Positions 6,241 to 32,573 of a DNA stretch of 33,668 bases are shown here, piece by piece. The stretch covers positions 1-33,668 of IMG/VR virus record IMGVR_UViG_3300030099_007653; one strand, 5' to 3'. Positions within the stretch are counted from its first letter, which is position 1; every line of letters starts with the position of its first letter. Source of the DNA: a virus. The notes under the pieces were generated by a model, which ran no database searches, was not told the DNA's origin, and worked only from the letters and a program-made list of their open reading frames with translations. A program made the translations under genes and the position numbers.

Positions 6241-6295
6241 CGTAGCTAGGGCACGAGTTATGTTTTAAAATTAATTAACCGAGAGCTTCGGCCTC
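6241..6295 (+). promoter_or_regulatory. Possible structured RNA leader upstream of hsp20
   Basis: The 108-base gap before hsp20 is more GC-rich than other gaps. It can form a hairpin at 6281-6295: GAG, a bulged A, GC, a TTCG tetraloop, then GC and CTC. An alternative is CCGA/TCGG (6279-6282 with 6288-6291). GTTA (6257-6260) can pair with TAAC (6276-6279). AGCT at 6244 and AGCT at 6284 are self-complementary, and AGGGC (6248-6252) can partly pair with GCCT. Competing pairings just before a heat-shock gene suggest a regulatory leader or RNA thermometer, but no known family was recognised. Confidence 0.35.
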
Positions 6296-6745: not shown

Positions 6746-6774
6746 AAAAAAACGTGTCCTAGCAGTGTTTTTTT
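6746..6774 (+). terminator. Terminator-like A/T stem-loop after hsp20
   Basis: Seven A then C (6746-6753) can pair with G then seven T (6767-6774), extended by two wobble pairs, with loop GTCCTAGCA. The T run serves as the 3' arm, so the hairpin is weak but terminator-like and could act on both strands. It runs directly into TCGTATATT of the next promoter-like element. Confidence 0.5.
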
Positions 6775-6782
6775 CGTATATT
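6754..6782 (+). promoter_or_regulatory. Promoter-like TATATT box before the 6810 gene
   Basis: TTTCGTATATTG carries TATATT at 6777-6782, with the TCG prefix shared by other sites in the window. The position 19 bases upstream is GTGT (6754-6757), a weak match to TTGG, and it overlaps the preceding hairpin. The first ATG is at 6810. It would drive the groES/groEL and clamp-loader run. Confidence 0.5.
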
Positions 6783-22720: not shown

Positions 22721-22751
22721 CCCGCAAGAAAATTTGGCTCCCGTAGGAAAA
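22721..22751 (+). repeat. Imperfect direct repeat CCCGYARGAAAA, 19 bases apart
   Basis: CCCGCAAGAAAA (22721-22732) and CCCGTAGGAAAA (22740-22751) match at 10 of 12 positions and start 19 bases apart, nearly two helical turns. They flank the TTGG of the next promoter. This could be a two-site operator. It is the most GC-rich part of this gap. Confidence 0.5.
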
Positions 22752-22762
22752 GTTCGTATATT
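22734..22762 (+). promoter_or_regulatory. Promoter-like TTGG-N19-TATATT
   Basis: TTGG (22734-22737), exactly 19 bases, TATATT (22757-22762), then TACAAGG. TCG precedes TATATT as in the other sites. The next ATG is at 22790. It marks a fresh transcription start after the glycan island and overlaps the direct repeats, so it may be regulated. Confidence 0.6.
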
Positions 22763-26962: not shown

Positions 26963-27558
26963 TGGAAAATGGTTATGTGCATTTAAAACAGGTAATACCT
27001 AAAGAAGTAGTATCTGAAGTTAGACGTAGATTAATTGACTTAAAATTAAAGTACCAAGATAGAGTTGGTGAACCAAGACATAATGGTTCAGGTACATTTT
27101 GGGGTGGTTTAGAATTAGCTAGTACATTTGATCCTAATTTATGGCAATATTATACTGCTGATTTTATGTTTGATATAGTTAAATCAATTATACCAACACC
27201 TTATTTATTTAATGATCAAGCAGTAGTTAAACCACCAAACTCAGAATTTAAATTTGATGCTCATTATGATAACCAATTTGGTCCTGATCCTGAAGGTGCT
27301 TTAAGAGGCGATTTTAAAACAATTAATTGTAGTTGGATATTAACTAATATGAATGAAGATAATGGTTGCCTATTTATAGATGATAAACCAATTATAGCTA
27401 AAGCAGGTGATATAGTTATAATAGATGGAAATAAAACCCATTACTCAGGTAATAATACAACTGATGGAATGAGAGTATTATATGCTTGTTGTTATTCAAG
27501 TAAACCAATTGGTAATTTTCAAAAAGGATTCTATAATGAAGAATTTAAAAAGAAATAG
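26962..27558 (+). CDS. Phytanoyl-CoA dioxygenase-like 2OG-Fe(II) oxygenase
   Basis: The 198-residue protein resembles the PhyH family. The N-terminal helix region (VHLKQVIPKEVVSEVRRRL) is followed by the iron ligands H101 and D103 in FDAHYDNQFG, a CLFIDDKP turn, GDIVIIDG, and H160 (KTHYSG) with R171 (MRVLY) for 2OG binding. These enzymes hydroxylate small molecules or residues. It directly follows the DUF6445-like gene. Its final 23 bases overlap the next small gene. The substrate cannot be read; a modified nucleotide, sugar or virion residue are all possible. Confidence 0.87.
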   Translation: MENGYVHLKQVIPKEVVSEVRRRLIDLKLKYQDRVGEPRHNGSGTFWGGLELASTFDPNLWQYYTADFMFDIVKSIIPTPYLFNDQAVVKPPNSEFKFDAHYDNQFGPDPEGALRGDFKTINCSWILTNMNEDNGCLFIDDKPIIAKAGDIVIIDGNKTHYSGNNTTDGMRVLYACCYSSKPIGNFQKGFYNEEFKKK

Positions 27559-27709
27559 ACGTAGTAAAGAAGAAGGACATATGGCCGCTTTAATAAGGCG
27601 GAAGATGATTCAACGGGATCATGGTGATAAGAGTAAATACACTCGTAAAGATAAGCACAAAAAGGGTTGGAGTTCCAACCCTTCTTTCGTATATTTACAG
27701 GGTAAATAA
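27536..27709 (+). CDS. Small basic protein with terminator/promoter in its coding end
   Basis: A 57-residue, Lys/Arg-rich protein (MKNLKRNRRSKEEGHMAALIRRK...). The ATG at 27536 overlaps the oxygenase gene by 23 bases; an earlier in-frame start is inside that gene and not favoured. Its last 15 or so codons are formed by a strong hairpin and a promoter-like element (27664-27695), so the coding end and control DNA overlap. The basic part could bind RNA or DNA. The codons after residue 43 may matter less for function than the DNA they encode. Confidence 0.55.
   Translation: MKNLKRNRRSKEEGHMAALIRRKMIQRDHGDKSKYTRKDKHKKGWSSNPSFVYLQGK
27664..27688 (+). terminator. Rho-independent terminator-like hairpin
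   Basis: GGGTTGG (27664-27670), loop AGTT (27671-27674) and CCAACCC (27675-27681) form a perfect 7-bp stem, followed by TTCTTTC. It lies in the 3' end of the small basic gene and runs straight into GTATATT of the next promoter. The 5' arm of the stem includes the TTGG of that promoter. Confidence 0.75.
27667..27695 (+). promoter_or_regulatory. Promoter-like TTGG-N19-TATATT embedded in terminator
   Basis: TTGG (27667-27670), 19 bases, TATATT (27690-27695), then TACAGGG. TTGG is in the stem of the hairpin before it, so one short element can both stop and restart transcription. The next ATG is at 27721 after an AAATAAAGGTT leader. Confidence 0.65.
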
Positions 27710-27720
27710 AAATAAAGGTT

Positions 27721-27924
27721 ATGAATAAAATGTTAAAATTCCTATTAGATAAAAAAAATAAAGGTCTACCTATGAATGTAGGAGAAGCTATGTCTAAGAC
27801 TAATACTTGGAAAGAAGGTAAAGTTGAATCCTCTGCTAATATATTTAGGGTTCACTGGGAAAATAATAATCAACCAATTGAACCAGATTTTGATTGGGAA
27901 AATGAAGTATTAAACGCAAGATAA
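27721..27924 (+). CDS. Hypothetical protein (67 aa)
   Basis: A 67-residue protein following a clear promoter and the AAAGGTT leader. It has a basic N-terminal helix (MLKFLLDKKNKG), then MNVGEAMSKTNTWKEG and an acidic, Trp-containing end (PDFDWENEVL). No motif is recognised. It is the first gene of its transcription unit and sits one base ahead of the SWIM-finger gene. The function is unknown. Confidence 0.65.
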   Translation: MNKMLKFLLDKKNKGLPMNVGEAMSKTNTWKEGKVESSANIFRVHWENNNQPIEPDFDWENEVLNAR

Positions 27925-27925
27925 T

Positions 27926-28369
27926 ATGGCACTCTGGAAATTTACAAATTTAAATAAATATGGTAATCCTAGAACTAGGATTATGCATAGACCAGATGGT
28001 GAGGCATTTAGCTTTAATCCAAAAGGTTTTGGTCCTTATGTTAATGTTAGGAGATTTAAATATGAGTATAAACATGAGGTTATGCCTCCTGGTATTGTAA
28101 AATTAGGTGGTAAAACATATATAGTACCTAGTTGGGAATTAGTAGAAGAAGGTACTACACTAAATGATATAGAGTGGATAAAACCAAAACCAAAAAGAAA
28201 ACATGAAACTATTGTAGTAGAAACACCTAGTTCAAAGGGAGATGTTATTTATAAAACGAGGTTCTACCCTGATTCAGGTAATTATACTTGTAATTGTCCT
28301 GGTACTTGGAGAGCTAAAGATAGAAAATGTAAACACATAAAAAAATTAGAAAATGAGCGATCAAAATAG
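27926..28369 (+). CDS. SWIM-type zinc finger protein
   Basis: A 147-residue protein with C122-x-C124 and C135-x-H137 (TCNCPGTWRAKDRKCKH), exactly the C-x-C-x10-C-x-H pattern of SWIM fingers, which bind DNA or proteins. The first 100 residues are Tyr/Phe- and Pro-rich beta-like (NPKGFGPYVNVRRFKY, GIVKLGGKTYIVPSWEL) with no match I recognise. The finger ends close to the C-terminus. It follows the previous gene by one base and overlaps the next by 17. A DNA-handling role is likely but not proven. Confidence 0.78.
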   Translation: MALWKFTNLNKYGNPRTRIMHRPDGEAFSFNPKGFGPYVNVRRFKYEYKHEVMPPGIVKLGGKTYIVPSWELVEEGTTLNDIEWIKPKPKRKHETIVVETPSSKGDVIYKTRFYPDSGNYTCNCPGTWRAKDRKCKHIKKLENERSK

Positions 28370-28589
28370 ATATGTTGTAAAATGGGAGTCATATGTTTAT
28401 GCTGATAATGATTATATGGCTAGAAAAAAGGCACATGAAGTGTTAGATCAAATAGAAAAAGTTAATAATGTACAAAATACTGAAGTAAAAGAAATTGGTG
28501 AGCAACCATTTGGTTCAATTCAGTATAGAGAATTTGATGATATTTCTAAGCCAAGAGATAAAGATGAAGATAAACCATTACCGTTTTAA
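28353..28589 (+). CDS. Hypothetical protein (78 aa)
   Basis: A 78-residue protein with a beta strand start (NRYVVKWESYVYADNDY), a helix (ARKKAHEVLDQIEKV), then a strand (TEVKEIGEQPFG) and a charged acidic/basic tail (PRDKDEDKPLPF). The alternating alpha/beta plan resembles small binding domains but no family is named. It overlaps the SWIM gene by 17 bases and leaves one base before the next gene. The function is unknown. Confidence 0.65.
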   Translation: MSDQNRYVVKWESYVYADNDYMARKKAHEVLDQIEKVNNVQNTEVKEIGEQPFGSIQYREFDDISKPRDKDEDKPLPF

Positions 28590-28590
28590 T

Positions 28591-28851
28591 ATGGAAGGAT
28601 ACGAATTAGTAGATAAAGCAATGAATGTTGGTTATAGAATGTTATTAGGTGAAGATATTGATTTTGAACCTAATGATAGTGATAAAGTAGAAGATATGGT
28701 TTTCATACCAGACCCAACTCAATCTGAAATGGAGTTAGCTGAAGACTTACTTGAATACTTTACTGAAGAGGAAGAATATGAAAAGTGTGCTAATATTAGA
28801 GACATTATTAATCTAAAAAAAACAATAAAAAAGTTATATGAACAAAAATAA
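28591..28851 (+). CDS. Acidic helical protein with UVR-like motif (86 aa)
   Basis: An 86-residue protein starting MEGYELVDKAM. Its C-terminal half has LAEDLLEYFTEEEEYEKCANIRDII, close to the UVR motif (A-x-x-x-E-D-Y-E-x-A-x-x-x-R-D) that links UvrB and UvrC and occurs in other protein partners. The rest is acidic. The start was taken at 28591 as the first ATG outside the previous gene, with one base between; earlier in-frame ATGs lie inside the upstream gene. It could be a partner-binding protein. It overlaps the next gene by 14 bases. Confidence 0.65.
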   Translation: MEGYELVDKAMNVGYRMLLGEDIDFEPNDSDKVEDMVFIPDPTQSEMELAEDLLEYFTEEEEYEKCANIRDIINLKKTIKKLYEQK

Positions 28852-29155
28852 ATTTAAGACCCTAGGTAAGGTACTAGCTAAAAATGGAATTGACATTAAA
28901 TACATGGTTGATTGGAGCGATCCAGAAAGATCATATACTGATCAACCATATTTAGGTTCAGGTACTTATAGTGGTATTGATGGTTGGTATTTTACTAAAA
29001 GTAATAATACAAATTGGACAGTTAAAGAAAAGAAAACCATTAGAGAAGTATTAAAGAAAAAAGGGTATAAATGTAAGGGTATTAATGATTATGAAGTTGA
29101 ATGGGATGGAGATAGATCATATTCCCCAAGTATAAGTTTTGTTTATGGAAAATAG
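28838..29155 (+). CDS. Hypothetical protein (105 aa)
   Basis: A 105-residue protein with a basic helical start (KFKTLGKVLAKNG), then an aromatic part (YLGSGTYSGIDGWYF), a Lys-rich helix (VKEKKTIREVLKKKGYK) and a C-terminal strand (YEVEWDGDRSY). It may be a small nucleic-acid-related fold but no motif is clear. It overlaps both neighbours by 11-14 bases. The function is unknown. Confidence 0.62.
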   Translation: MNKNKFKTLGKVLAKNGIDIKYMVDWSDPERSYTDQPYLGSGTYSGIDGWYFTKSNNTNWTVKEKKTIREVLKKKGYKCKGINDYEVEWDGDRSYSPSISFVYGK

Positions 29156-29519
29156 AGGTAGACCAAGTGAAAATACAGTTAAACCTAGTAAGTGGGTTTT
29201 AGAAACAGGCGATACGACTTACTATTATGATGCAAAGAAAAACCCAAATGGGTGTTGGAAAACAGTAAATCATGATACAACTAAATACCCTAAACCAGAA
29301 ATTAACCAAAGAATGTATGGTAAATCGCCTGTAGTAATGGTATTTAATACCTCAAATCGTTCTAATGCTAGAACTAAAATGAAGGTATTTAGAAAAAATG
29401 TTGACTATGTATTAACGGCTAAGAAATTACCTGGTGTACCTGAAAAAGCAGTTATACTAGATGTTGGTGTTGGTCACTCATTTATAGAGGAGTATCAGAA
29501 AAAATACAACCTTAAATAA
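29145..29519 (+). CDS. Hypothetical protein (124 aa)
   Basis: A 124-residue protein, ATG at 29145 (an in-frame TTG at 29139 is less likely). It is basic and Asn/Lys-rich with strands such as SKWVLETGDTTYYYDAK, SPVVMVFNTSNRSNARTKM and AVILDVGVGHSFIEEYQK. No catalytic motif is certain; the VILDVGVG stretch slightly resembles a SAM-binding loop but is too late in the sequence to be a methyltransferase. It ends a transcription unit before a hairpin. The function is unknown. Confidence 0.62.
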   Translation: MENRGRPSENTVKPSKWVLETGDTTYYYDAKKNPNGCWKTVNHDTTKYPKPEINQRMYGKSPVVMVFNTSNRSNARTKMKVFRKNVDYVLTAKKLPGVPEKAVILDVGVGHSFIEEYQKKYNLK

Positions 29520-29543
29520 GGATATATATTTATCACCAAATTG

Positions 29544-29574
29544 TAGAGACCAATAAAATTGCTTGGCGTCTCTA
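29544..29574 (+). terminator. Hairpin between early-type and virion-type genes
   Basis: TAGAGAC (29544-29550) pairs perfectly with GTCTCTA (29568-29574). CAA/TTG inside the loop can extend it with a two-base bulge. No U-run follows (AAAGAAAAA), so it may be a processing or stability hairpin or a weak terminator. The TTGG of the following promoter-like site lies in the loop side. Confidence 0.5.
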
Positions 29575-29591
29575 AAGAAAAATTATATATT
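29563..29591 (+). promoter_or_regulatory. Promoter-like TTGG-N19-TATATT before a virion-type gene
   Basis: TTGG (29563-29566) lies inside the hairpin and TATATT (29586-29591) is exactly 19 bases beyond. It is followed by TATAATAAAACG. The first ATG is at 29628. The box is part of the 15-base AAATTATATATTTAT shared with 24525-24539. No CG precedes TATATT here. Confidence 0.55.
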
Positions 29592-29627
29592 TATAATAAA
29601 ACGAAATTACAGTAAACTAATAATACT

Positions 29628-30827
29628 ATGTACAGAGAAACTCAAGACCCAGGAAACTGGTCCCACTTCTTAAAAAGAAGAGATAATAAAGGCCTTTCCC
29701 TCATGGAGGCAAAAAGAAAATACTTGAAAGAACAATTAGAATATGATTCTTTCATTAACATGCAGCTTGCTAGATTTGAAATGAATAGACAAGCATTATT
29801 AGTCCAAGGTGGAGGGGGTAACCCAGATGCATTTGAAGATATATTAAATTGGGTATGGGAAACTCAGGGACTTGCAGTAGTATCAGGTGGTACTGCTCTA
29901 TTTGAAGTAGAATTTGAATCTCAAATAAATTTTACAAATGTTGGAGCTGATTTAGTTCACTTACTTGTTCCTAATGGACAACAAGGTAATGGTACAGCAG
30001 CAACAATTCCATTTACAGCTTCTAAAGTAACAGAAGGAGGTAGAACAATACAATTCTCATATGCACAATCAGCAAACGCAGCAGCACAAGGTGCATGGGC
30101 AGCTAACGTATTAGGAACAGGTTCAATAAATTCATTAGTATCAACACCAGCAGTTAATGCAGTAGGTGGTCAGTACAATGCCGTTGCAAATACAGCAACT
30201 AATTCTGGTGCAAATCAAGTAATAAACATAACAGTAGCAACAGGATCATCTGTTGATACTACAGCTGATGCTTTAGTAGCAGCAATTAACCAAAACACAA
30301 ATGGTGCAGCCGCTGCAACTTATCCTGATGTAACATTCTCAACAGTAGGATCAGGTATTAACCTTACAGCTTCAGTCACAGTAGGTGGTGGTGGTACCGT
30401 TACAGGAATTACAGTAACAAATGGTGGTTCAGGATATGTTAATGGAGAACAAATAACAGCAGCAGCTGCAGATGTTGGAGGTGGTAGTCAAGATTTAGTA
30501 ATTATTATCACATCAGCTGATTTAGTAGGTGGAGCAGTTACTTCAGTAGTACAAACACAAGGAACATTATTTAGACCAAATGATACTATTACAGTAACAG
30601 CAGGAGAAATTGGTACTAATTCAACAGGACCAATATTTACAATCCCAGGAACAGCATTAGTAGGTGATAGAGTAGGATATGCAAGTGGAGCTACAGGAGC
30701 AATCCAAGTATCAGGTTCTGCTAGATTATTCAATCCAGATGACACAGATGTTACTATTGATAATACGTTCCTTGGAACACAATTAAGATCAGGTACTGTA
30801 AGATTTGCGACTGGATCAGCAGTATAA
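29628..30827 (+). CDS. Glycine-rich probable virion structural protein
   Basis: A 399-residue protein. Residues 1-75 are helical and charged. Residues from about 85 are Gly-, Ala- and Thr-rich beta sequence. A segment such as GITVTNGGSGYVNGEQI resembles repeats found in marine phage structural proteins. Low Cys and the high Ala/Thr/Gly composition, unlike its neighbours, fit a tail, fibre or capsid decoration protein. Base composition is also less AT-rich than in the enzymes upstream. It follows a promoter-like site and leads the probable structural genes. The exact virion part is not known. Confidence 0.7.
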   Translation: MYRETQDPGNWSHFLKRRDNKGLSLMEAKRKYLKEQLEYDSFINMQLARFEMNRQALLVQGGGGNPDAFEDILNWVWETQGLAVVSGGTALFEVEFESQINFTNVGADLVHLLVPNGQQGNGTAATIPFTASKVTEGGRTIQFSYAQSANAAAQGAWAANVLGTGSINSLVSTPAVNAVGGQYNAVANTATNSGANQVINITVATGSSVDTTADALVAAINQNTNGAAAATYPDVTFSTVGSGINLTASVTVGGGGTVTGITVTNGGSGYVNGEQITAAAADVGGGSQDLVIIITSADLVGGAVTSVVQTQGTLFRPNDTITVTAGEIGTNSTGPIFTIPGTALVGDRVGYASGATGAIQVSGSARLFNPDDTDVTIDNTFLGTQLRSGTVRFATGSAV

Positions 30828-30849
30828 TATTAATTAAAAAAAGTAGATT

Positions 30850-31149
30850 ATGTTAGAAATAATAGGACTAATAGTTTTAGTATTAGTAGTAGGAGCAGCA
30901 GTTTATTATTTTGGTTTCTATAAAAAAGGTAAAATCAACGATAGAGATGGTGATTTAATACCTGATGAAATTGAAGATGCAGTAGCAGAAATCAAAAAAG
31001 CAGCTATAGAAGCAAAACGTAGAGGTAAAAATGTTAAAAATGAACTTAAAGACGTTCTTGCAGCTGCTAAAGAATTAGGTAATCAAATAGGAGACGTTAG
31101 TGCCGCTGCTAAAGGTAAAAAAAGACCAGGCCGTAAAAAGAAAAAATAA
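30850..31149 (+). CDS. Membrane-anchored protein with DxDGDxxPD calcium-like motif
   Basis: A 99-residue protein. Residues 3-23 are a hydrophobic transmembrane helix (LEIIGLIVLVLVVGAAVYY). Then INDRDGDLIPDEIED (29-43) is a thrombospondin type-3/calcium-binding-like DxDGDxxPDxxE motif, and a long charged helix and a Lys-rich tail (KKRPGRKKKK) follow. This is a YtxH-like plan with a DxDGD insert. Such small proteins are often host-envelope-acting. It follows the structural protein by 22 bases and its TAA shares a base with the next ATG. The role is unknown. Confidence 0.7.
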   Translation: MLEIIGLIVLVLVVGAAVYYFGFYKKGKINDRDGDLIPDEIEDAVAEIKKAAIEAKRRGKNVKNELKDVLAAAKELGNQIGDVSAAAKGKKRPGRKKKK

Positions 31150-32132
31150 TGTCAAAAATTAAATTATCAAGCTTACTTAAAGAATATATAGGTGGAGGTA
31201 GAATAGGTACCTTAAATATTTCATTCAAAGATCTACAAGATAAAATGGATGAACTTGAACAATCAGGTAAAGTGATTGTTAGAGAAATACCTGGCCCTTC
31301 TGGTGATGGTAAAGTAAATAGAGAATTTGAAGTAGTAGATAGAGATTCAGCTGTAGCAGGAGGTAATAAGCAAGAAAGAGGATTTACTGTATATGACTAT
31401 AAATTTGGATTTGATCCAGGTAGTCAAGCTGAATTCATGAATGAGTATCCATTTAGTGTTGGAGGTAATGATTTAAAATTAGCTATGGAATTAATAGATG
31501 GAGTTGAACCTTATGGATTAGAGGAAGATCTATTTGATAAAGCTTATGTTGATGCACATGGTAGTAGTGAAGATAATGTAGATAATATTGATCAAGTAGC
31601 TAGTCCAAGTGCTAAAGGTAAAGGATATAGCTCAGCTGTAGGTGCTGAACGTAGTGAAAGTGGTAAAGAACAATCAGATATAACTCAAACAACAAGACCT
31701 ATGTATAAAGAAGAAAAAGTACCCCAATTATCAGAATTAGCTGGTTATACTAGAAAAGGTGAAAAAGAAATAGATGATAAAGAAGAAAGTAAATTTAAAG
31801 GTAGAGCTAAGGGTGTTGGATTAGGTCAATTACTGAAAAAAGTAATGGATGAAAATGGTGATAGTAAAGACTACACAGATGAAATAGCTGAAGATATGTA
31901 TATTGATGATGATGAATTTGAAATGGAGATGGTAATGGATAGAGCTAAAGAAATAGCTCCAATACTAAAAGGTATTGATATGGATGTTATTGTTGATTTT
32001 GTTAAAACACACAGACAAGATATTAGAGGTGCTTCTGATGAAGAAATTAGAGATGAATTTGAAGAATTTAGATCAGTAAATTATGATTATATTGATGAAG
32101 ATCTAAGAAAACAATTCGATAGGTTTAAATAA
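31149..32132 (+). CDS. Acidic hypothetical protein, possibly virion-associated
   Basis: A 327-residue protein with N-terminus MSKIKLSSLLKEYIGGGRIG, followed by a folded part to about 130 (FKDLQDKMDELEQSGKVIV, FDPGSQAEF), a disordered stretch rich in Ser, Glu, Lys and Gly (about 135-215), and an acidic helical C-terminus (EEIRDEFEEFRSVNYDYIDEDL). The short L-S-S-L-L-K-E-type opening occurs in several phage structural and prohead-associated proteins. No enzyme motif was recognised. It shares a base with the upstream gene (TAATG) and is followed by a strong terminator, so it ends an operon. A scaffold or packaging-related role is a guess. Confidence 0.62.
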   Translation: MSKIKLSSLLKEYIGGGRIGTLNISFKDLQDKMDELEQSGKVIVREIPGPSGDGKVNREFEVVDRDSAVAGGNKQERGFTVYDYKFGFDPGSQAEFMNEYPFSVGGNDLKLAMELIDGVEPYGLEEDLFDKAYVDAHGSSEDNVDNIDQVASPSAKGKGYSSAVGAERSESGKEQSDITQTTRPMYKEEKVPQLSELAGYTRKGEKEIDDKEESKFKGRAKGVGLGQLLKKVMDENGDSKDYTDEIAEDMYIDDDEFEMEMVMDRAKEIAPILKGIDMDVIVDFVKTHRQDIRGASDEEIRDEFEEFRSVNYDYIDEDLRKQFDRFK

Positions 32133-32162
32133 AGGCAGGCACACATTTTAAAATATTTTAGT

Positions 32163-32191
32163 GAGGAAACTTGGTTTCCTCATTTTCTTTT
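32163..32191 (+). terminator. Rho-independent terminator
   Basis: GAGGAAA (32163-32169), loop CTTGG (32170-32174), TTTCCTC (32175-32181), then ATTTTCTTTT: a perfect 7-bp stem with a T-rich tail. It ends the structural operon. The loop contains the TTGG of the next promoter. Confidence 0.85.
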
Positions 32192-32199
32192 CGTATATT
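32171..32199 (+). promoter_or_regulatory. Promoter-like TTGG-N19-TATATT inside terminator loop
   Basis: TTGG (32171-32174) is the loop of the terminator; 19 bases later is TATATT (32194-32199), preceded by TTTTCG. This is the same layout as at 27667. The next ATG is at 32232. A transcription stop and start overlap within about 40 bases. Confidence 0.65.
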
Positions 32200-32231: not shown

Positions 32232-32573
32232 ATGGCAATTGAAATTCAAAACGAGATAGATATCGTTATCAAACAAGCTAATTTGGTTAGAAAATATATT
32301 AATCAACAAATGAATTATCAACAAGTAGCTCATGAGTTTATGCAACTTGCAGAGAAAAGTCAATTAAAACAAAACTTTACTCACTTAGCAAAATGGATAG
32401 AAAGTGGTTACAAGAAAGATCCTGAACAATTACATCAGGAAATACTTGATTTTGATGGGTTAATGAAAGCTATCCATGAACAAGCTGGTGATGTTGATAC
32501 ACTTAAATATCAACAAGCACAACAATATTGGAATGAAGCTCAGAATGATTTAGAATCAACTTCTTATCTATAA
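32232..32573 (+). CDS. Helical hypothetical protein (113 aa)
   Basis: A 113-residue, Gln-rich, wholly helical protein (MAIEIQNEIDIVIKQANLVRKY, NYQQVAHEFMQLAEK, PEQLHQEILDFDGLMKAI). Heptad-like hydrophobics suggest a coiled-coil or helical bundle. No family is recognised. It follows a terminator-promoter element and its TAA shares a base with the next gene. It is the first gene of the right-end unit, perhaps an adaptor. Confidence 0.68.
   Translation: MAIEIQNEIDIVIKQANLVRKYINQQMNYQQVAHEFMQLAEKSQLKQNFTHLAKWIESGYKKDPEQLHQEILDFDGLMKAIHEQAGDVDTLKYQQAQQYWNEAQNDLESTSYL

Follow-up and report, generated by a model that had tools for sequence, protein, structure and literature searches.

In T4-like phages related to Flavobacterium phages, intrinsic terminators appear to have been placed repeatedly inside a highly uniform promoter, with the RNA hairpin and the promoter drawing on the same bases. 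Two such fused elements lie at 27664 and 32163 of a 33.7-kb virus contig from IMG/VR (IMGVR_UViG_3300030099_007653; 33,668 nucleotides (nt), analysed in full and called the window here). Comparison with promoters from other viral loci (numbered L) and with the isolate Flavobacterium phage vB_FspM_immuto_2-6A (NC_055915; hereafter immuto) makes it likely that a terminator embedded in the promoter is a recurrent and selected, though optional, feature of the group.

Predicted terminator hairpins within a uniform promoter

At 27664, the sequence-only reading had described a perfect 7-base-pair (bp) stem containing the promoter's TTGG, with a T-rich tail running straight on into the promoter. This was borne out: TTGG lies in the 5' arm and the tail, TTCTTTCG, leads into TATATT. 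The hairpin has a minimum free energy (MFE) of -14.2 kcal/mol (z-score -4.1, with 0 of 200 shuffles as good), and the stem reaches 9 bp if the flanking A-T pairs are counted. At 32163-32199, the sharing of TTGG with the terminator and the tail leading into TATATT held, but the stem is longer than the 7 bp proposed (TGAGGAAAC/GTTTCCTCA; MFE -12.9 kcal/mol, z-score -4.2). Both sites combine a stable, G+C-containing stem and a short loop with a T-run directly past the stem, as in intrinsic terminators; the run at 27664 is weaker than that at 32163 (TTTTCTTTTCG), and each merges with the TTCG of the promoter. They are the only strong sense-strand terminators of the window outside long open reading frames (ORFs). 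The 27664 element is also present in L006, L173 and L256, and orthologous promoters carry other stems. Coordinates are collected in Table 1.

Table 1. Positions of the elements discussed in the window, in related loci and in immuto (UTR, untranslated region).
Record	Position	Strand	Feature	Sequence or remark
Window	6245..6255	+	Helix 5' strand, Hsp20 5' UTR	GCTAGGGCACG
Window	6281..6295	+	Covarying small hairpin, Hsp20 5' UTR	GAGAGC-UUCG-GCCUC
Window	6753..6763	+	Helix 3' strand, just upstream of a TTCGTATATT box	CGTGTCCTAGC
			Strand pair of the Hsp20 helix	GCTAGGGCAC/GTGTCCTAGC
Window	22734..22762	+	Promoter without terminator hairpin	TTGG-N15-TTCG-TATATT; fold not stable
Window	27482..27709	+	Small upstream ORF	Last codons cross the 27664 hairpin and promoter; stop codon 27707-27709
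Window	27664..27681	+	Terminator stem-loop	GGGTTGG (27664-27670), loop AGTT, CCAACCC (27675-27681)
Window	27667..27670	+	-33-type box	TTGG, top of the hairpin's 5' arm; consensus from 129 loci
Window	27682..27695	+	T-rich tail merging into -7-type box	TTCTTTCG; TATATT (27690-27695)
Window	29544..29574	+	Hairpin without T-tail	TAGAGAC...GTCTCTA; window only, absent in relatives
Window	29583..29599	+	Late-type promoter-like motif	TTATATATTTATAATAA; class apart from TTGG/TTCGTATATT
Window	31149..32132	+	Gene ended by the predicted 32163 terminator	
Window	32162..32182	+	Terminator stem-loop	TGAGGAAAC (32162-32170), loop TTG, GTTTCCTCA (32174-32182)
Window	32171..32174	+	-33-type box	TTGG; TTG forms the loop, last G paired
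Window	32183..32199	+	T-rich tail merging into TATATT	TTTTCTTTTCG; TATATT (32194-32199)
Window	32232..32573	+	First gene downstream of the 32171 promoter	
Window	Gene 31149 junction		Terminator fused with promoter	TGAGGAAAC-TTG-GTTTCCTCA
L004	Gene 31149 junction		Terminator fused with promoter	GGGGAAC..GGTTCCCC
L007/L008	Gene 31149 junction		Terminator fused with promoter	GCGCGG..CCGCGC
L010	Gene 31149 junction		Terminator with T-tail, then separate promoter	GGAGCTATCTAGCTCC
L006	Gene 31149 junction		Terminator with T-tail, no promoter there	AGAGGC..GCCTCT
immuto	33322		Terminator hairpin	TTGGCTC-TTCG-GAGCCAA-TTTCTTATATT
immuto	64495		Fused hairpin	AGAGTTGC-TAGC-GCAGCTCT-TTTTTCGTATATT
immuto	104387		Fused hairpin	AGGCTTG-TTTATT-CAAGCCT-TTTTTCGTATCTT
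immuto	22065, 46497, 130539		Starts of further fused hairpins	

The promoter follows the consensus TTGG-N15-TTCG-TATATT or, more fully, A-tracts, TTGG, 15 nt, TTCG and TATATTTAC, the 15-nt spacer being nearly free in sequence. TTGG to TATATT spans exactly 29 nt at four intergenic sites of the window (22734, 27667, 29563 and 32171). A pattern scan recovered the exact form, TTGG-N15-TTCGTATATTTAC, from at least 120 viral sequence stretches. Across 129 loci the motif matched 223, 101 and 96 times with zero, one and two mismatches, compared with 0, 0 and 27 times for the reversed motif; loci L012-L131 had been selected for the exact promoter, and the informative part is therefore the one- and two-mismatch matches together with the A-rich blocks upstream of TTGG (near -20 to -16 and -7 to -2). 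A looser form is present in immuto. Variants with TTGC for TTGG were seen at positions 1178, 4406, 7599 and 7912 of L053, where several are flanked by GGAGG..CCTCC, and at 62-76 kb in immuto. Scanning for sigma-70 promoters (TTGACA/TATAAT) gave chance level.

The enrichment of hairpins was measured against an arm-swap control, in which left and right halves are exchanged between different promoters and column composition is kept. Hairpins overlapping TTGG numbered 65 in the redundant promoter set, compared with 28 +/- 3 after swapping, and 36 in 284 non-redundant promoters, compared with 9.5 +/- 2.2; folds below -10 kcal/mol made up 16.5% against 4.4 +/- 0.9%. Fused hairpins with a T-tail occurred in 29 of 283 non-redundant promoters (about 10%) against 4.5 +/- 1.5 (maximum 9 in 60 swaps), and in 11 of the 48 promoters of immuto against 4.6 +/- 1.2 (maximum 8 in 200). 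The 7 nt past the stem hold on average 3.98 T, compared with 3.07 at the same positions of hairpin-less promoters (p = 9e-5). Spacer T content at fixed positions shows no difference between strongly and weakly folding promoters; only the T content anchored on the stem differs. Several fused hairpins have UUCG- or GAAA-type loops. These comparisons show the fused hairpins to be a recurrent arrangement, apparently under selection, and not a product of chance.

The association is also visible from the side of the terminators. In immuto, a promoter-like site with up to 2 mismatches lies within 60 nt of 13 of the 23 sense terminator-like hairpins and of 0 of 21 antisense ones, and in 11 of these 13 the -7 box starts 6-11 nt past the stem; at 128528 and 149711 the two signals are separate but adjacent, the -7 box being 21 and 26 nt away. 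In the 128 other loci, the corresponding counts are 35 of 84 sense (20 of them within 11 nt) and 1 of 67 antisense terminators. Roughly 40-55% of predicted sense terminators thus stand at most 60 nt upstream of a promoter, compared with 0-1.5% on the other strand, a comparison uncorrected for promoter density or promoter T-richness, for which the arm-swap test does correct.

The sequence-only reading had proposed that relatives be examined for co-conserved stems. The sequence of the stem is not conserved, but its presence often is. Downstream of gene 31149, a terminator is kept in all five comparable phages, fused with the promoter in three, adjacent to it in one and without a promoter in one; the stems and layouts vary. 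The predicted stop thus persists through changes in its sequence and in whether it is joined to the promoter. Upstream of the orthologues of gene 27926, the promoter is found in nearly all loci and a hairpin in about half of the distinct sequences, with seven different stems in several registers: TTGG may belong to either arm, straddle stem and loop, or stand clear of a hairpin that occupies the spacer. The mean MFE of this orthologous set is -9.5, compared with -5.7 after arm-swapping (0 of 500 as low).

Around the 31149 junction, GCAGGCACACATTTT stands between the stop codon of the gene and the terminator (32135-32149) and is kept in L004 near 6471, with CAGGCACACATTTT as its version in L007 near 6805 and a similar GCAGGTGCACATTTT in L006; no exact complementary partner of it was found within the window. 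For gene 32232, the viral-contig search returned no relatives, and weak ones are present in loci fetched via other genes.

Proposed working and alternative explanations

Because the spacer is nearly free in sequence, evolution could repeatedly put an intrinsic terminator inside the promoter, and since it ends in TTCG, a U-tract fits there. The hairpin would take TTGG into its 5' arm, loop or 3' arm, with the U-tract filling the end of the spacer and merging with TTCG. A polymerase arriving from the upstream gene would make hairpin and U-tract, the transcript folding as the polymerase reaches the spacer, and is predicted to let go of the RNA at the upstream edge of the -7 box. The next unit would then be started from the same ~40 bp by a holoenzyme that may include the just-stopped polymerase. 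Termination and initiation by a single element, as the sequence-only reading had it, receive good comparative support at 27664 and 32163, though not at 29544-29591 or 6746-6782, and we infer both activities for the fused elements. RNA fold and promoter do share bases here but need not, since a hairpin is missing from the majority of TTGG promoters.

Several observations weigh against this reading, besides the preselection of loci and the uncorrected strand comparison. About 90% of promoters have no T-tailed hairpin; T-tails are sometimes short or absent, as in hairpins like CGGGAGGCTTGGCTTCCCG followed by GGCTAGGG, and, with all strong folds taken together, spacer positions 10-18 are no richer in T. 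The 27664 hairpin lies inside the 3' end of the ORF 27482-27709, whose stop codon falls just past TATATT, and a trailing ribosome could therefore mask it and blunt termination. An excess of G-U over A-C mismatches in the stems (17 vs 4) served at first as a criterion for telling RNA from DNA symmetry but was set aside: arm-swapped controls were equally biased, base composition accounts for the excess, and it therefore does not separate the two. As for the polymerase, flavobacterial sigma-A promoters carry a TTG box at -33. Their -7 box is TAnnTTTG (PMC9723704). The phage promoter has a TTG box and a TAnnTTT box at fixed spacing, as expected of a Bacteroidota sigma-A type promoter, and its -7 box, TATATTTA(C), is related to TAnnTTTG but not identical, with A in 73% of cases at the position of the final G. 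Cellular genomes hold the exact motif in 44 stretches over 257 Gb, near a rough chance estimate of ~30, and several of the 44 sit in contigs that look phage-like, from bins that are flavobacterial or of other kinds. Given the missing G and the near-chance cellular matches, we can only infer early use of the promoter by an unmodified host sigma-A polymerase.

If terminator and promoter both work and their overlap saves bases with no functional coupling, plain genome compaction would suffice. This is a sub-case of the embedded-terminator reading and compatible with it; we hold it to be the most likely form, at somewhat better than even chances, and rank it above a hand-off of polymerase. It agrees with the prevalence of promoters without a hairpin and with separate but adjacent layouts (L010; immuto 128528 and 149711). 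The tight distance between stem and -7 box in immuto fits it less well, yet the length of the T-run alone could impose that distance. A relay, in which the host polymerase does not leave the DNA on terminating but, with its active site at the -7 box, rebinds sigma and re-initiates on the same promoter, seems to us unlikely; if true, upstream transcription would feed the next unit without read-through RNA.

The dyads around TTGG might instead serve as DNA operators, bound by a promoter regulator of phage or host origin. Many are perfect inverted repeats, so that both strands fold about equally well, and a subset such as CGGGAGGCTTGGCTTCCCG lacks a T-run. Operators should however keep their sequence, and one orthologous promoter carries seven unrelated stems in different registers; T-runs past the stems exceed positional expectation, stable RNA tetraloops (UUCG, GAAA) are in use, and the gene 31149 junction keeps a canonical terminator where the promoter is separate (L010) or absent (L006). 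We accordingly regard operators as improbable. Much the same low probability attaches to hairpins acting as 3'-end stabilisers or RNase processing sites: some indeed have no T-run and several sites lie just past stop codons, but enrichment is greatest for hairpins with a T-tail (29 vs 4.5). That these hairpins arise by chance, given an AT-rich genome, a fixed TTGG and a T-rich motif, is very improbable. TCGTATATT, with one mismatch allowed, is not over-represented across the window as a whole and arm-swapped promoters still yield some hairpins, but swapped counts fall far below those observed in two data sets.

A recurring promoter subtype like TGCRCGGGAAGCTTGGCTTCCCGGGCTAGGGTTCG has the hairpin and no T-run (L009 near 785, L010 near 3783, L055 2425, L088 9297, L097 4420 and 4751, L110 6713); it is perhaps a repeated cassette or has a different function.

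Two sites of different organisation

The sequence-only reading had assigned a similar layout to 29544-29591 and 6746-6782, which did not survive comparison. At 29544, there is a 7-bp stem (TAGAGAC/GTCTCTA) as well as TTGG, but the hairpin has a loop of 17 nt, a z-score of -1.85 and a tail, AAGAAAAATT, with no T-run; its identity as a terminator is not convincing. In relatives, neither TTGG nor hairpin occurs at this place and only a late-type TTATATATTTATAA is found, directly past the stop codon of the 29139 orthologues, as seen in L004-L011. Late genes of immuto (e.g. tail sheath, tail tube) are preceded by similar TATTTATA motifs. The 29544-29591 site is accordingly best described as a putative late-type promoter adjoining a hairpin without a T-tail. 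The window has two late-type copies, 29521-29534 and 29583-29599, on either side of the window-specific hairpin, a layout suggestive of an insertion of gene 29628 along with its own promoter.

The 6746-6782 site has no TTGG, and its A-tract/T-tract hairpin is weak (-5.8, z-score -2.4) and lost in many of about 80 loci, most of which keep the core CGTGTCCTAGC. A MotA box (TGCTT centred at -30, as in T4 middle promoters) does not match this conserved block, and that reading was dropped because pairing with the Hsp20 5' UTR accounts for the conservation. In these loci (L176-L255, L034, L035), GCTAGGGCACG of the Hsp20 5' UTR is complementary to CGTGTCCTAGC of the 3' UTR, giving a covarying 11-bp helix that encloses the ORF, with co-changing variants GCTAGAGC/GCTCTAGC, AAGGCGCGCT/AGCGCGCCTT and GCTTGGGCGCGT/ACGTGTCCAAGC. 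In an alignment of 18 sequences, picked to be diverse and with no fitting to the structure, the helix is 94% paired and both bases vary in 8 of its 11 pairs; the covariation score of the whole structure, including the small 5'-UTR hairpin, is 0.289 compared with 0.134 in shuffles. No Rfam covariance model matched the window at gathering score. The helix looks like an undescribed RNA element, although flanking DNA repeats, instead of RNA, may be what pairs.

Hosts, known systems and significance

The window encodes T4-type genes (family B DNA polymerase, sliding-clamp loader, ATP-dependent DNA ligase, Hsp20, GroES and GroEL) and represents part of a T4-like phage genome akin to those of Flavobacterium phages. 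Isolated phages yielded no match in a nucleotide search with the window region. Its GroEL is 60% identical to that of immuto, and a flavobacterial or related host is therefore likely; flavobacteria are probably the hosts of the virus group with fused promoter-terminators. Contigs with the TTGG/TATATT promoter, several with multiple exact copies, also occur in bins of unrelated organisms, named Pelagibacter (L149, L167), Rickettsiaceae (L162) and Woesearchaeota (L144, L173), and are probably mis-binned phage contigs.

Intrinsic terminators, strong uniform phage promoters and the proximity of terminators to promoters are all already known. The fused hairpins resemble intrinsic (Rho-independent) terminators in their 7-11 bp G+C stem, 3-6 nt loop (also UUCG/GAAA), T-run and intergenic position, but their T-run is short and bounded by the promoter's TTCG, and stem or loop doubles as promoter DNA. 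Compared with the flavobacterial sigma-A promoter, which has a TTG box, a TA..TTT box and similar geometry, the phage form is far more uniform, adds TTCG and usually has A for the host's final G. The promoter of immuto has the same layout and several fused terminators, but its -33 box is often TTGC, with TTCN before the -7 box and TAGGTAT after it. T4 early promoters are likewise uniform and strong, with A-rich upstream stretches resembling UP elements; they serve another host polymerase with other boxes, and terminator embedding is not described in the part of that account consulted (PMC2988021). In vitro, bacterial polymerases can remain on the DNA after hairpin termination and begin again from the nearest promoter, and phage terminator-to-start distances are as small as 14 bp (PMC11347151). 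This recycling is likewise a stop followed by a start nearby, and makes the hand-off testable, but it was measured in vitro on neighbouring signals, whereas the signals predicted here share bases. The open literature searched gave no direct description of a phage lineage repeatedly embedding terminators in its promoter.

In this phage lineage, RNA folding and promoter recognition appear to have been encoded repeatedly in shared bases. The fused elements offer natural templates for asking if a bacterial polymerase that has terminated can restart immediately on the promoter beneath it, and may be of use as a compact stop-start part for flavobacterial genetics. The uniform promoter, in turn, allows transcription units to be read from the sequences of uncultured relatives of Flavobacterium phages.

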